From positions 1 to 13,461 of the forward strand of contig CADCUW010000412.1 of NCBI GenBank assembly GCA_902805985.1: a stretch of DNA of 13,461 nt, given 5' to 3'. The first letter of the stretch is position 1. Each line of letters begins with the position of its first letter. Source of the DNA: an uncultured Rubrobacteraceae bacterium. Lineage in GTDB: Bacteria > Actinomycetota > Rubrobacteria > Rubrobacterales > Rubrobacteraceae. Shown here one piece after another: positions 5,840 through 11,325 of this stretch. The position numbers and the translations under genes are program-made. Below the pieces are notes generated by a model. That model was not told the DNA's origin, did not search any database, and saw nothing but the letters and a program-made list of their open reading frames with translations.

Positions 5840-5846
5840 CTCCCGC

Positions 5847-8261
5847 ATGGAGAGGCGAGAGTTCGAGAAGGAAGCACCCGGGGCGTTCGCCGGGCGCCTG
5901 CGGGAGCTTAGGACGGCGGCCGGGCTCACCCAGGAGGAGTTGGCAGAGAGGGCGGGCCTCTCCCCAAACGCCGTCGGCGCCCTGGAGCGCGGACAGAGGA
6001 GGCGCCCCTACCCGCACACGGTGAGGGCTTTGGCCGACGGCCTCGGGCTCGGCGAGGAGGGGCGGGCCTCGCTTCTCGCCGCCGTGCCCGGGCGGCCGGA
6101 GGCCGCCGGGCGGGCCCCGGAGAAGCCGCCTGCGGCCGACCCGCCGACCGCGTCATCGACGGCGCTGCCGTACCCGGCGACGTCGCTCGTGGGGCGCGGT
6201 CGGGAGCTCGGGGAGGTCGCGGGCCTGCTGGCGCAACCCGAGGCGCGGCTCCTCACGCTCACCGGCACCGGCGGGGTCGGCAAGACCCGCCTCGCCGTCG
6301 AAGCGGCGCGGGCCTCGCTGACCTCCGGGCGCTTCTCCGACGGCGTCGCCTTCGTCAGTCTCGCCCCGATCGAAGACCCGGCGCTCGTGGCCCAGGCGGT
6401 GCTCGGCTCGCTCGGCGCGGCCATACCGGACGGCCTGACCCCGTACGAGGCACTCGCCGGGCACCTGAGGGAGAAGGAATTCCTGCTCGTCCTGGATAAC
6501 CTCGAGCACCTGCTGGCGGCGGCACCGGAGCTTGCGGGGCTGGTAGAGGTCTGCCCGGGCCTGACGGTGCTGGCCACCAGCCGAGCCCCGTTGAGGGTGC
6601 GGGGGGAGATCGAGTACCCCGTCCCCCCGCTCGCGCTGCCGCCCACGACCCGCTCGCCCTCCGAGGGGGAGGTCACGGGCTCGCCCGCAGGAACGCTCTT
6701 CGTCGAGCGGGCGCGGGCGACCTCGTCCGGGTTCCGCCTGACCCGGCAGAACGCGGCGGACGTGGCGGCGATCTGCTGGCGGCTGGCGGGGCTGCCGCTG
6801 GCGCTGGAGCTCGCGGCGGCGAAGACGAAGTTCCTCGACCCTGCGACACTTCTCTCGCGCCTGGACCGGGCGCTCTCGACCACCTGGGGGCGCGACCTGC
6901 CGGAGAGGCAGCGCACGATGCGGGCGACGCTGGACTGGAGCTTCGGGCTGCTCGGCGAGCAGGAGAGGCGACTGCTCGGGCGTCTCTCCGTGTTCGTCGG
7001 GGGCTTCTCGCTTCCGGCGGCCGAGGCCGTGGGGGCGGGGTTCAACGCGGCGGGGGACGTCGACGCCGGGGCGGTGATCGACCACCTCGGTACCCTGGTG
7101 GAGCAGTCACTGGTGACGGTTGACCCGAACGGGGGCGATGATGGCACCCGCTTCAGGATGCTCGAGCCGGTCAGACAATATGCCCTGGAGAAGCTGGTCG
7201 AGGGCGGCGAGGAAGGGGAGACGCGCGGTCGACACGCGGCCTACTACCTCGCCCTGGCCGAGCGGGCGGGCGTGGAGCTCTGGGGCCCCGGCCAGGGAGA
7301 GTGGCTGGAGAGGCTCGAGCGCGAGAACGGCAACCTGCGCGCCGCCCTTGCGTGGACGATCGATTCGGGGGCGGAGACCGCGGGGAGGTTCTGCTACGCG
7401 CTATGGCTCTTCTGGTGGGCCCGCGGCCACCACGGGGAGGGTCGCCGATGGTCCGAGGCGGCGCTCGGGTGCGACCTTCCGCCCGCCTGGCGCGCCAGGG
7501 TGCTCTCCGTCTCCGCGGCGATGTTCTACGCGGCCAACGACCACGCCCCGGCCGAGGAGCGCTGGAGCGCGGGCCTCTCCGTCTCCCTGGAGGGAGGCGA
7601 CAGGATCGGCGAGAGCTACTGCAGGTCGGGCCTGGGGCTCGCCAGGCTGGCCCGCGGGGACCATGAAGCGGCGGCGGCGCGATTCGGCGAGGCCCTGCCG
7701 CTTCTGGAAGAGTGCAGGGACCCGCTCTCCTCGTTGGCACGCGTGTGGATCGGAACGACCTCCCTTCTCCGTGGCGACGCTGAGCGGGCCGAGCGGGAGA
7801 TCGAGGAGGGGCTGAGCTCGGCCCGGTCCCGCGGGGACACCCTCTGCACCTACGTGGGCCTCTACAACCTGGCCCAGCTAGCAATCTCGCGCGGCGACCT
7901 CGGGCTCGCCGCCACCACGCTAGAGGAGGGCGTGAGACTCTCCGGGCACACCAAGGACAGGGCGAACCTCGCGCACTTCCTGGACGCGCTCTCGGCGGTC
8001 GCCGCGCTGCGCGGAGAGGCGGAACGCTCGGCGGTCTTGATCGGCGCGGCCGAGGAGTCCCTGCGGGAGGTCGGCGCCCCCGTCTACAACTTCTACGCCC
8101 CCGACCCCTCCCTGAAGGAACGCGCCTCCTCGGAGGCCCGCGCCTCTTTGGGCGACGCGGCGTTCGAGGAGCTGCGCGAGCAGGGACTGTCCATGACCTT
8201 CGAGGACGCGGTCACCTTAGGAGCCGGTACCGACGCGAACGGCCCCACAGCGGCCCTGTAA
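5847..8261 (+). CDS. XRE-family HTH regulator with STAND-type ATPase and TPR-like repeats (paralogue)
   Basis: 804-residue paralogue of the product of 19-2439 with the same layout: HTH (about 17-75), Walker A GTGGVGKTR (140-148), Walker B LLVLDNLEH (213-221), ATSRAPL sensor-like motif, GLPLA motif, winged-helix-like region and TPR-like repeats, ending with GAPVYNFY and the SMTFEDAV tail. All nucleotide-binding motifs look intact, so it should be an active ATP-switch regulator. The ATG at 5847 is preferred over a much longer upstream open frame (from 5076), because that extension runs antisense through the beta-helix gene and the small gene, and because the -10 at 5834 fits a leaderless start. 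The HTH is one residue different from the paralogue over about 57 residues, while the sensor half is clearly diverged: probably the same DNA targets but a different signal. It converges on glmS, with stop codons 45 bp apart. Confidence 0.92.
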   Translation: MERREFEKEAPGAFAGRLRELRTAAGLTQEELAERAGLSPNAVGALERGQRRRPYPHTVRALADGLGLGEEGRASLLAAVPGRPEAAGRAPEKPPAADPPTASSTALPYPATSLVGRGRELGEVAGLLAQPEARLLTLTGTGGVGKTRLAVEAARASLTSGRFSDGVAFVSLAPIEDPALVAQAVLGSLGAAIPDGLTPYEALAGHLREKEFLLVLDNLEHLLAAAPELAGLVEVCPGLTVLATSRAPLRVRGEIEYPVPPLALPPTTRSPSEGEVTGSPAGTLFVERARATSSGFRLTRQNAADVAAICWRLAGLPLALELAAAKTKFLDPATLLSRLDRALSTTWGRDLPERQRTMRATLDWSFGLLGEQERRLLGRLSVFVGGFSLPAAEAVGAGFNAAGDVDAGAVIDHLGTLVEQSLVTVDPNGGDDGTRFRMLEPVRQYALEKLVEGGEEGETRGRHAAYYLALAERAGVELWGPGQGEWLERLERENGNLRAALAWTIDSGAETAGRFCYALWLFWWARGHHGEGRRWSEAALGCDLPPAWRARVLSVSAAMFYAANDHAPAEERWSAGLSVSLEGGDRIGESYCRSGLGLARLARGDHEAAAARFGEALPLLEECRDPLSSLARVWIGTTSLLRGDAERAEREIEEGLSSARSRGDTLCTYVGLYNLAQLAISRGDLGLAATTLEEGVRLSGHTKDRANLAHFLDALSAVAALRGEAERSAVLIGAAEESLREVGAPVYNFYAPDPSLKERASSEARASLGDAAFEELREQGLSMTFEDAVTLGAGTDANGPTAAL
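5900..6071 (+). repeat. HTH-coding block nearly identical to 81-252
   Basis: Second copy of the 172-bp segment described at 81-252, at a constant offset of 5819, with three substitutions. Silent sites are conserved too, so protein-level selection alone does not explain the match; recent recombination between the paralogues is the simpler reading. Confidence 0.9.
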
Positions 8262-8306: not shown

Positions 8307-10142
<1,836 letters not shown>

Positions 10143-10217
10143 GGGCGTACCTCCCAGTCTTCCGCAAATTAAAGTCAATTGGGGCGAAGAGAGAGTGGCA
10201 GGACCGTCAGGGTCCCA
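10143..10217 (-). other. glmS leader between ribozyme and start codon
   Basis: About 75 nt of leader between the ribozyme and the GTG. It holds a small GGACC/GGUCC hairpin next to the ribozyme, a pyrimidine-rich run, an AT-rich patch (10165-10181, unusual for this DNA) and the GGAGG ribosome site. After self-cleavage this segment would be the lower part of the 5'-OH mRNA that nucleases degrade. Confidence 0.6.
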
Positions 10218-10376
10218 CCCGGGCCGAACGGCGTTTTGTCCCCGGTGTCACCACCGGATTTTGTCGCCGCCCTATCGACCGCCCGAAGCCGAGACGCACC
10301 CGCCGAAAAACTCGATGAACGTCTCCCTCGTCGACTCCCGCCTTGAAAAACTTGCTGCTCGGGAGCCCTGGCGCTT
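10218..10376 (-). ncRNA. glmS ribozyme (glucosamine-6-phosphate-dependent self-cleaving riboswitch)
   Basis: On the glmS strand the conserved core is present and in order: AGCGCC at 10375-10370 (cleavage expected between A 10375 and G 10374), GACGAGGG at 10332-10325, UUCAUCGAG next to it, and UCGGCGGGUGC at 10306-10296. The stems can be built by hand. P1 is GGCUCCCG (10367-10360) with CGGGAGUC (10340-10333). P2 is GAGACG (10325-10320) with CGUCUC (10296-10291). P3 is UUCGGGC with GCCCGGG (10224-10218). P4 is GCGGCG (10270-10265) with CGCCGU (10233-10228). P4.1 is CCGGUG-GUGA-CACCGG (10257-10242), capped by a GNRA-type loop. The arrangement follows the Thermoanaerobacter tengcongensis ribozyme as I recall it. 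In known examples glucosamine-6-phosphate is a cofactor for cleavage, after which RNase J degrades the message. The position directly upstream of glmS confirms the call. Confidence 0.95.
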
Positions 10377-10495
10377 GTTTTTGTTCTCTCCGTCCCGCAA
10401 GCCCCGAACCTTCAGTCGGGCCTACCGGCCGTACCTCTGAAAAATCTCTCCTCTCGCACCTCCTCCAACGCGGCCGTGGCCCATTCACTTTACCC
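10377..10495 (-). other. Upstream part of glmS leader/promoter region, no gene seen
   Basis: Together with 10143-10376 and 10496-10524 this makes up the 382-bp gap between the acyltransferase and glmS. The glmS promoter should lie here if glmS has its own, but I found no convincing -35/-10 pair. There is a purine-rich AGGAGG stretch and a T-run near 10440-10475 without a credible start codon after it. Transcription from the acyltransferase gene may also pass through. Confidence 0.4.
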
Positions 10496-10524: not shown

Positions 10525-11325
10525 CTAGGAAAGGTTCAGATCCACCACACCTAGCGCGGCGAGGAGGACGATCATCACCGGCTGGTGTACGAGGTAGATC
10601 GCAAGCGAGTTCCTGCCCAGCGGAAGCAACGGCCGGGCAGGTACGGGAGCGCGATCCGGTATCCCCCCGGGCCGTCTCCCGTCGCCGTAGACCGTGTTCC
10701 CGAAGAAAATCCCGACCAGGACCACCCCGAACCACGGCAACAGCGGCCTGTAGTCCGGCATGGCCCATCCCTCCGGTACGACCCCGAACGGCAGGAGCCA
10801 GGCGCTCCCGGTCGGGTCACCGGCCTGCAAAGATAGTCCGGCGGCGAAGATCGCGGCGCCAAGCACGAAGTTCGCGAACCTGAGCTTCAGGAAGGGGTAG
10901 GAGAGGACGATGGAGACCCCGATCAGGTGCAGTATCCCGAACGCGACTATTCCCATGCCGAAGACGAGGAAGACCGCCGTGAGCAGCATCCCGTAGCCGA
11001 AGATCCTGAGTCCCCGCAGCAGGTACCTCCGGAACCCTCCCCCGCCCCTCTTGCTACTGATGGCGAGCGAGACCCCGACGAGGAACAGGAAGAGGCTCGC
11101 GGTCGCGTCGGCGAAGCGGGCCCAGAAGCCGCTCACGGCGTCCACGTCGTAGCCGCCGAAGGCGTAGAGGTCGAAGGTGAAGTGGTAGACGACCATCATG
11201 AGGATGGCGACGCCGCGCGCGGCGTCGATCTCCCAGAACCTGCCGCCCTTGTTGGTGGCGCTGCGCTCCGTGCCTGGTCCCCTCTCCGCCGTCGCGGGGA
11301 TCATACCCCACCCGCCGAACCTCAT
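10525..11325 (-). CDS. Membrane acyltransferase, HGSNAT_cat / DUF1624 family
   Basis: A 266-residue integral membrane protein. The N-terminal block RFWEIDAARGVAILMMVVYH followed by FTFDLY is the signature of the heparan-alpha-glucosaminide N-acetyltransferase catalytic domain family; H48 is the likely conserved histidine. About seven hydrophobic segments can be seen (roughly 36-55, 73-90, 106-124, 126-145, 150-166, 195-209, 240-260), with RNSLAIYLVHQP near the end. Bacterial members are thought to move acetyl groups across the membrane onto sugars or envelope polymers; the substrate here is unknown, although the glmS neighbour fits an amino-sugar theme. The ATG at 11325 has no ribosome site; an in-frame ATG at 11304 is an alternative, and family conservation begins only near residue 29, so the start is uncertain. 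It diverges from the GNAT gene at 11342 with 16 bp between start codons. Confidence 0.88.
   Translation of the reverse strand: MRFGGWGMIPATAERGPGTERSATNKGGRFWEIDAARGVAILMMVVYHFTFDLYAFGGYDVDAVSGFWARFADATASLFLFLVGVSLAISSKRGGGGFRRYLLRGLRIFGYGMLLTAVFLVFGMGIVAFGILHLIGVSIVLSYPFLKLRFANFVLGAAIFAAGLSLQAGDPTGSAWLLPFGVVPEGWAMPDYRPLLPWFGVVLVGIFFGNTVYGDGRRPGGIPDRAPVPARPLLPLGRNSLAIYLVHQPVMIVLLAALGVVDLNLS

Follow-up and report, generated by a model that had tools for sequence, protein, structure and literature searches.

The glmS leader of an uncultured Rubrobacteraceae bacterium carries what is almost certainly a glmS ribozyme controlling the gene behind it, and comparison of related sequences suggests that such ribozymes in this phylum are enclosed by a further helix, here termed P0, in which leader RNA just 5' of the cleavage site would pair with RNA just 3' of stem P4 and which is without counterpart in the Rfam model. 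The account that best explains the observations overall, and that can be held with good confidence, is a glmS ribozyme that places glmS under feedback by glucosamine-6-phosphate (GlcN6P) and is enclosed by P0 in this phylum. The copy analysed here is otherwise an ordinary member of its class and adds one more G+C-rich glmS ribozyme to it.

Within the window, the whole stretch of 13,461 nucleotides that was analysed, cmscan returned a match to RF00234, the glmS ribozyme, on the reverse strand at 10386-10216, covering the full model (positions 1-167) with 101.4 bits (E 3.1e-23) against a gathering score of 37 bits. No other Rfam match in the window exceeds its threshold, and the host assembly (4.23 Mb, 707 contigs) holds this single RF00234 match. 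A sequence-only reading had proposed a complete glmS ribozyme at 10218-10376 and a search with this covariance model, and the result of that search bears out the ribozyme; the location stands, whereas the size does not, as the model match occupies 10216-10386 and the element with P0 included extends at least from 10392 to 10185. All ribozyme and leader features described below likewise lie on the reverse strand. The conserved core segments and the stems P1, P2, P3, P4 and P4.1 that had been drawn by hand are present, the core comprising A(-1) at 10375, G1 at 10374, GCGCC, GACGAGG, AUCGA, UCGGCGG and a GUGA tetraloop. Every pair of the P2/P2.1/P2.2 double pseudoknot forms in the window copy, AGCGCC stands at the cleavage site, and the peripheral P3/P4 domain is complete with its GNRA-type GUGA loop capping P4.1. 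From the position of AGCGCC in the model alignment, cleavage is predicted between A(-1) 10375 and G(+1) 10374, in agreement with the earlier proposal, and would leave a leader of 232 nt before the GTG, where about 230 nt had been anticipated.

The site lies in the leader of glmS (8307-10142, reverse strand, 611 aa), whose product, glutamine--fructose-6-phosphate aminotransferase, begins MCGIVGY and is identified as GlmS by TIGR01135 with 760.7 bits (cut-off 418), as the placement upstream of glmS had implied. Its GTG start at 10142-10140 follows the RF00234 match by 73 nt and is preceded by the Shine-Dalgarno (SD) sequence GGGAGG at 10155-10150. The RF00234 ribozymes of B. subtilis, B. anthracis and T. 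tengcongensis have the same core, stems P1 to P4.1, cleavage site, gene and position; the window copy differs from these examples in being G+C-rich, and the window as a whole has the high G+C content that had been noted (70.7%).

The architecture is maintained across the host's family. In an alignment of 37 family sequences, 36 of them distinct, the named structure comprises 39 pairs, and standard pairs fill 97.3% of 1403 pair cells in the distinct sequences, against 93.2% in shuffles and 33-54% with partners slid; both sides have changed in 12 of the 39 pairs, against 6.5 in shuffles. The core double pseudoknot (10292-10373) consists of P2.2 (10373-10370 with 10304-10301), P2.1 (10330-10328 with 10315-10313) and P2 (10324-10320 with 10296-10292). 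P2.1 and P2.2, the active-site pseudoknot pairs in the numbering given in the accessible part of PMC7125110, are invariant and fully paired in all 36 distinct sequences, which is conservation and says nothing about covariation; P2 is also 100% paired, with double changes in two of five pairs. Double changes occur as well in P1 (10367-10360 with 10340-10333; three of eight pairs), and, within 10226-10291, in P4 (10272-10265 with 10233-10226; five of eight) and P4.1 (10257-10252 with 10247-10242; two of six), and in none of the five pairs of P3 (10291-10287 with 10280-10276). An invariant core, helices kept through double changes and an intact glmS downstream make it hardly credible that the window copy is the relic of a decayed ribozyme, and no evidence for decay was found. 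The P1 apical loop (P1 hairpin, 10333-10367) had been described as expanded and as containing a U5 tract; the tract is indeed in the loop, but a length of 19 nt is not unusual among the 37 family members, which range from 2 to 25 nt. A U5 run is found in the P1 hairpin of three members (the window, L024 and L038), and only in the window copy does it lie wholly inside the apical loop.

Such ribozymes are not rare in this part of the bacterial tree, contrary to what the sequence-only reading had implied. RF00234 matches occur in 37 of 39 genomes of the host's family, including all 22 of good quality (at least 90% complete, at most 5% contaminated), the two genomes that have none being 82% and 83% complete, and in 75 of 396 genomes sampled in the phylum. 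The flanks of the family loci have 60-73% G+C, and the G+C-rich glmS ribozyme is a standing trait of this family. An actinobacterium-like source had also been suspected, and this is consistent with the named GlmS loci among the matches listed, 75 of 80 being Actinomycetota by name; at least 80 were listed, at 47-53% identity, and nearer relatives may be absent from that list. In 71 of the 75 phylum loci glmS lies directly downstream, starting 49-233 nt after the RF00234 match, and these tallies suggest that the ribozyme has been inherited together with glmS.

The remaining four loci, all of one genus, have glnA (glutamine synthetase) first and glmS next. They come from all four genomes of a single low-G+C family (loci of 25-31% G+C, genomes of 1.0-1.4 Mb), in each of which the only glmS ribozyme (50-62 bits) heads the glutamine-synthetase gene, followed by glmS, so arranged that GlcN6P feedback would also cover glutamine supply. 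The gene runs are at L166 (G034:C124), L167, L168 and L169/L170 and the ribozymes at L154:301-543, L149:301-543, L150:301-538 and L155:301-533; glutamine synthetase was identified by Pfam (PF00120, PF03951) in G034 and is alike by eye in the other three. A glmM-like gene (Pfam) lies upstream of the run in G034, and in G391 the run is split, the ribozyme contig ending inside glnA and the glmS contig beginning with it. At these loci a pair of additional hairpins lies in the ribozyme core, between P2 and the AUCGA strand, and P2.2 differs at position 5/53. In a further family, f77, with 34 matches in one genus, genomes are of 0.6-1.1 Mb and the RF00234 matches are short, at about 147 nt.

The P0 helix was first noticed by reading the leaders and spacers of relatives, in which complementary strands flank the ribozyme, and it is very probably real in the window's family and in a second class. 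Duplexes computed over long stretches with no slot imposed were in many cases spurious and carry no weight in what follows. Across the 37 family genomes native leader-spacer duplexes have a mean z of -1.43 relative to shuffles, and in 32 of them the native duplex is better than the mean inter-genus swap (mean difference -4.84 kcal/mol). One explanation would be that these are plain glmS ribozymes and that the complementarity simply reflects leaders rich in purines opposite spacers rich in pyrimidines; both have a biased composition, and the window's own P0, as described below, is no better than swaps or shuffles. This explanation is nevertheless improbable, in that a permutation of partners, which preserves composition, still sets the native pairs apart, both within the family and across the second set of loci (p=0.0002 in each). 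In this test the RNAduplex energy was calculated between leader positions -45 to -6 and at most 70 nt after P4, with partners permuted 5000 times, and the 37 family genomes gave -34.28 kcal/mol for native pairs against -29.34 kcal/mol for permuted ones (sd 0.64), the p value being the floor of the test; with one genome for each of the 13 genera p is about 0.0002. Also at odds with a compositional origin, neither control region of these leaders pairs with post-P4 RNA beyond chance in the window's family, whether at -115 to -60 (p=0.87) or far upstream at -200 to -130 (p=0.23), and the leader is likewise null against the SD region (p=0.72).

When the search is confined to a common slot (leader -30 to -9, spacer +3 to +46), a score of at least 18 is reached in 20 of 37 native family pairs and in 25.9% of 1182 inter-genus swaps (p=0.0004). 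Some members do not conform: the duplex is worse than swaps in five of the 37 (G000, G280, G053, G076 and G152), and slot scores of 13 or less are found in G053, G076, G087 and G119. Elsewhere in the first set the permutation gave p=0.019 for family f18, 0.042 for f28 (n=4), 0.11 for f2 and 0.09 for the rest (n=5), and the slot-restricted test 0.13, 0.083, 0.060 and 0.036, respectively; in the rest the controls are not clean (far upstream p=0.0098, leader against SD p=0.042). The permutation values belong to 25 tests in all, and in the window's family, f2 and f18 the choice of regions to compare was made with their sequences already in view. Members of f18 have a UAGGGG-type strand just 5' of the cut with its complement in the spacer, a P0-like arrangement farther from P4 than elsewhere, the complement lying 61-62 nt after P4 in G169 and G020 (L132, L134) and 40-47 nt after it in G137, G116, G035 and G048 (L119, L021, L007, L005). 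A leader hairpin seen in some members of the window's family was considered and set aside; a loose pattern found it in 11 of 37, one of them far upstream and spurious.

For a second set of loci both the statistic and the membership were fixed before the sequences were viewed. It comprises 44 loci from 28 genera in the class of G331, with no genome of the window's family among its matches, drawn from 87 RF00234 hits after leaving out the 34 hits of f77, six genomes already used (G331, G045, G057, G177, G304 and G340), G406 (at a contig start) and the weak matches in G427 and G398 (48.3 and 35.5 bits), these last two exclusions not being named in the prior specification. The genomes are new, yet f28, f30, f52 and the genus g61 (one locus) are shared with the first set, so the two are not wholly independent. 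Native pairs here have -24.68 kcal/mol against -21.64 for permuted partners (sd 0.58, p=0.0002; per genus p about 0.0005), and the difference holds within f52 alone (p=0.0002) and f30 alone (p=0.0022). The control region at -115 to -60 is null (p=0.19); the other controls are not clean, with p=0.037 far upstream and p=0.0002 for the leader against the 30 nt that precede the start, a comparison in which spacers are short and the target can overlap the post-P4 region by 12 nt. The best contiguous helix falls in a common slot in 31 of the 44 loci, the leader strand starting at -29 to -15 and the spacer strand at +3 to +33, and the slot score reaches at least 18 in 29 of 44 native pairs compared with 12.8% of 1842 inter-genus swaps (p=0.0002). 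The contiguous helices in this place are unrelated in sequence, among them AGACCGGAGA with UCUCCGGUCU, GAUCAAGC with GCUUGAUC, GCGACAGA with UCUGUCGC and UUGCGUGCG with CGCACGCAA, and further GGAGAUGC with GCAUCUCC, GGGAAGACGA with UCGUCUUCUC and GGACCGGCAC with GUGCCGGUCU.

In the window copy the putative 5' strand of P0 is CGGAGAGA at 10392-10385, 11-18 nt 5' of the cleavage site, with a possible extension at 10396-10394, and the putative 3' strand is UCUCUUCG at 10192-10185 (+24 to +31 after P4), with a possible extension at 10184-10181. A model of the intact RNA gives these pairs probabilities of 0.83-0.88. Between P4 and the 3' strand a local hairpin is predicted (10219-10211 with 10205-10197), with pair probabilities of 0.97-1.0 in the cleaved model, and a similar one occurs in the minimum free energy structure of seven of eight members of the genus. 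Taken alone, the window's P0 is not significant: its duplex energy is -25.7 against -27.4 for swaps (z 0.4 against shuffles), its contiguous score 18.5 against 19.0 for swaps, and the expected number of leader-spacer pairs 15.0 with the native leader and 17.0 with swapped ones. Within the genus 59 of 64 pairs are standard in the window's register, pair 2 being G-C in four members and A-U in the other four, and this level of pairing was matched by 540 of 2000 permutations. P0 is nonetheless rather probably present in the window's copy, because of the co-evolution seen across the family and because the candidate sits in the slot common to its relatives.

The first 19 and the last 10 positions of the RF00234 model are unpaired, whereas P0 encloses the ribozyme in much of this phylum. 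McCown et al. reportedly described in 2011 Deinococcus-Thermus variants of the glmS ribozyme with extra stems inside the core. Those variants likewise show that the class tolerates added helices, although theirs are inside the core and P0 encloses the ribozyme. Loci of f24 are closer to these core-stem variants. Among Firmicutes, two of nine named loci scanned carry the ribozyme (L042 and L107), too few to judge P0. At L107:2683-3000 (Heliobacterium mobile) the glmS ribozyme scores 91 bits, CUCGACA and UGUCGGG could form a P0, and by eye a terminator-like hairpin with a T run lies between ribozyme and glmS. A search for literature on a glmS riboswitch in Rubrobacter found no paper, and a P0-like helix goes unmentioned in the accessible parts of PMC2258182, PMC11602151, PMC7125110, PMC3766115, PMC3997798, PMC10907184, PMC13273304 and PMC10043782. 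None was seen either among the titles and abstract beginnings listed, which came from queries that did not name such a helix, and an earlier description by McCown in 2011 or 2012 is possible.

The likely course of events is that GlcN6P, as cofactor, brings the leader RNA to cut itself between A10375 and G10374, and that the glmS message behind the cut, which then bears a 5'-OH, is inactivated, a step that is established for the B. subtilis member and would extend to the window copy. In B. subtilis, according to the accessible part of PMC3997798, GlcN6P-dependent self-cleavage of the glmS mRNA is followed by degradation by RNase J1. Before cleavage P0, formed by the leader some 10-25 nt 5' of the cut and the RNA just 3' of P4, would clamp the base of the ribozyme in the uncut message, and after cleavage its two strands would belong to separate molecules. 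The 3' strand is located, in the window's family, in or close to RNA that is predicted to base-pair with the SD sequence of glmS, and cleavage may thus, as far as folding models go, both expose the mRNA to 5'-3' decay and free a strand that closes the ribosome-binding site. P0 would also tether the cut 5' fragment, and the departure of this fragment is the unsupported step of the mechanism.

Translational riboswitches with an anti-anti-Shine-Dalgarno strand work through mutually exclusive pairings that decide access to the ribosome-binding site. The glmS leader would be similar if the SD step holds, except that the choice would be made by cutting a strand off and not by ligand-driven refolding. 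In the cleaved product from the window the SD is predicted to be sequestered in a hairpin (10195-10184 with 10165-10151) that covers five bases of the hexamer GGGAGG at 10155-10150, and P0 and this hairpin are mutually exclusive, since the 3' strand of P0 lies inside 10195-10184. In models in which the ribozyme of the intact RNA was replaced by 12 N, the predicted freedom of the window's SD is 0.07 when cleaved, 0.39 when intact and 0.19 with swapped leaders. Over 35 of the 37 family genomes, G053 and G076 being omitted for spacers of at least 150 nt, it averages 0.151 cleaved and 0.399 intact and is raised in the intact RNA in 33; the native leader frees the SD more than leaders from other genera do (0.270; native higher in 27 of 35, p=1.8e-4), more than shuffled leaders (0.306; 22 of 35, p=4e-3) and more than a far-upstream piece (0.175; 32 of 35, p=1.4e-7). 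The means of 12 genera agree, with p=2.4e-3 against cleaved, 3.4e-3 against swapped and 1.6e-2 against shuffled. That shuffled leaders also partly free the SD is a point in favour of the plain, compositional explanation weighed above.

Spacer and SD are more complementary than shuffles within the window's family (Fisher p=0.015) and f2 (1.8e-4), the value in f18 being 0.48. Permutation gave no sign of spacer-SD co-evolution in the window's family (p=0.83), and the window's best contiguous spacer-SD match over a 24-nt SD segment scores 12.5 against 16.6 for swaps; the two spacer strands, judged by best contiguous match, overlap by at least 4 nt in only 11 of 37 family members. In f2 both leader and SD are complementary to the strand immediately behind P4, with an overlap of at least 4 nt in 11 of 14, and the effect on SD freedom is not leader-specific; this dual complementarity fits the idea of switching, and the f2 strands vary too little for a test.

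A close contender, judged a little short of an even chance, is that P0 is a structural clamp only, which joins the ends of the ribozyme and aids co-transcriptional folding or insulates the core. P0 would then tether the cut 5' fragment, perhaps even permitting re-ligation, and shut-off would proceed by decay as in B. subtilis, translation not being switched directly. Several observations are in keeping with this: P0 occurs where the freedom of the SD barely depends on the leader (in 39 of the 44 loci of the second set it hardly shifts, at 0.414 intact, 0.354 with swapped leaders and 0.355 cleaved, and in f30 it is 0.165 both ways, n=10), spacer and SD show no co-evolution in the window's family, and the host assembly contains, at a contig start, an RNase J-like fragment whose match spans model positions 330-545 with 179 bits, short of the cut-off of 400. 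Standing against a clamp alone are the greater release of the SD by native than by swapped, shuffled or far-upstream RNA in the window's family and the location of a P0 strand inside the window's predicted SD hairpin. An effect of P0 loss on the Shine-Dalgarno sequence in the window's family is accordingly a tentative proposal, somewhat doubtful on present modelling, and the fuller version, in which the ribozyme would serve as the scissors of an expression platform, glmS being translatable while the uncut leader holds the anti-SD strand through P0 and cleavage closing the SD, is less likely still. If true, translation would be under the direct control of a metabolite-dependent ribozyme, whereas glmS RNAs are generally held to lack an expression platform and to act by cleavage and decay of the mRNA alone. 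In the accessible part of PMC13273304, glmS variants with an expression platform were sought in post-aptamer sequence and no covarying overlap is reported; that analysis, as far as the same part goes, concerns post-aptamer sequence and not leader-to-spacer pairing across the cleavage site.

Farther upstream the window's leader contains an SD-like motif, GGAGGAGGTG, at 10466-10457, about 90 nt 5' of the cleavage site, which includes GGAGGAGG at 10466-10459 and has no start codon 3-14 nt behind it. GGAGG is found in 34 of 37 family leaders (shuffle mean 16) and, in 31 of 37, within one 30-nt slot at -110 to -80, similar-size slots elsewhere having it in 0-6, and the flanks have diverged. A start codon follows the slot GGAGG by 3-14 nt in one of the 31, a GTG overlapping or touching the motif not being counted, and a small upstream open reading frame behind GGAGG was rejected on this ground. 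STAB-SD elements of the cryIIIA type are likewise SD sequences in a 5' leader without a start codon at the usual distance, the window's motif differing in its place upstream of a self-cleaving ribozyme, and in Bacilli mRNAs are stabilised by strong SD sequences that lack a start codon (PMC3997798, in the part accessible). It is conceivable, if rather unlikely, that the GGAGG element protects the glmS mRNA in this manner and that ribozyme cleavage removes the protection. The conservation of the slot without a start codon in leaders that have otherwise diverged argues for protection; against it are the relatedness of these sequences, the absence of GGAGG in f2 (0 of 14, shuffle mean 4.8) and a GGAGG region that does not pair with post-P4 RNA, pairing of the element with the spacer having been rejected as null in the family for -125 to -60 (Fisher p=0.82) as for -115 to -60 (p=0.87). 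Protection by GGAGG could combine with P0 and need not be only its rival.

Upstream of the leader, TAAAGT at 10492-10487 is a weak -10-like hexamer; TA[CA]AGT is shared by 16 of 37 family genomes, among them that of the window, at -139 to -115, and a promoter scan found no site. In a Selenomonadales metagenome-assembled genome (L042:2800-3000), AAAAAAGGAGG with GGAGG lies about 25 nt before the cut, the next ATG being 16 nt behind it. Two long paralogous regulators are encoded on the forward strand of the window at 19-2439 and 5841-8261, each with an HTH start and a TPR end by eye and from weak NCBIfam matches, both being below every NCBIfam cut-off shown. The gene adjoining the glmS leader upstream (10525-11325, reverse strand) encodes a membrane acetyltransferase of the HGSNAT type (PF07786, 223 bits), an activity that is, by name, related to amino sugars.
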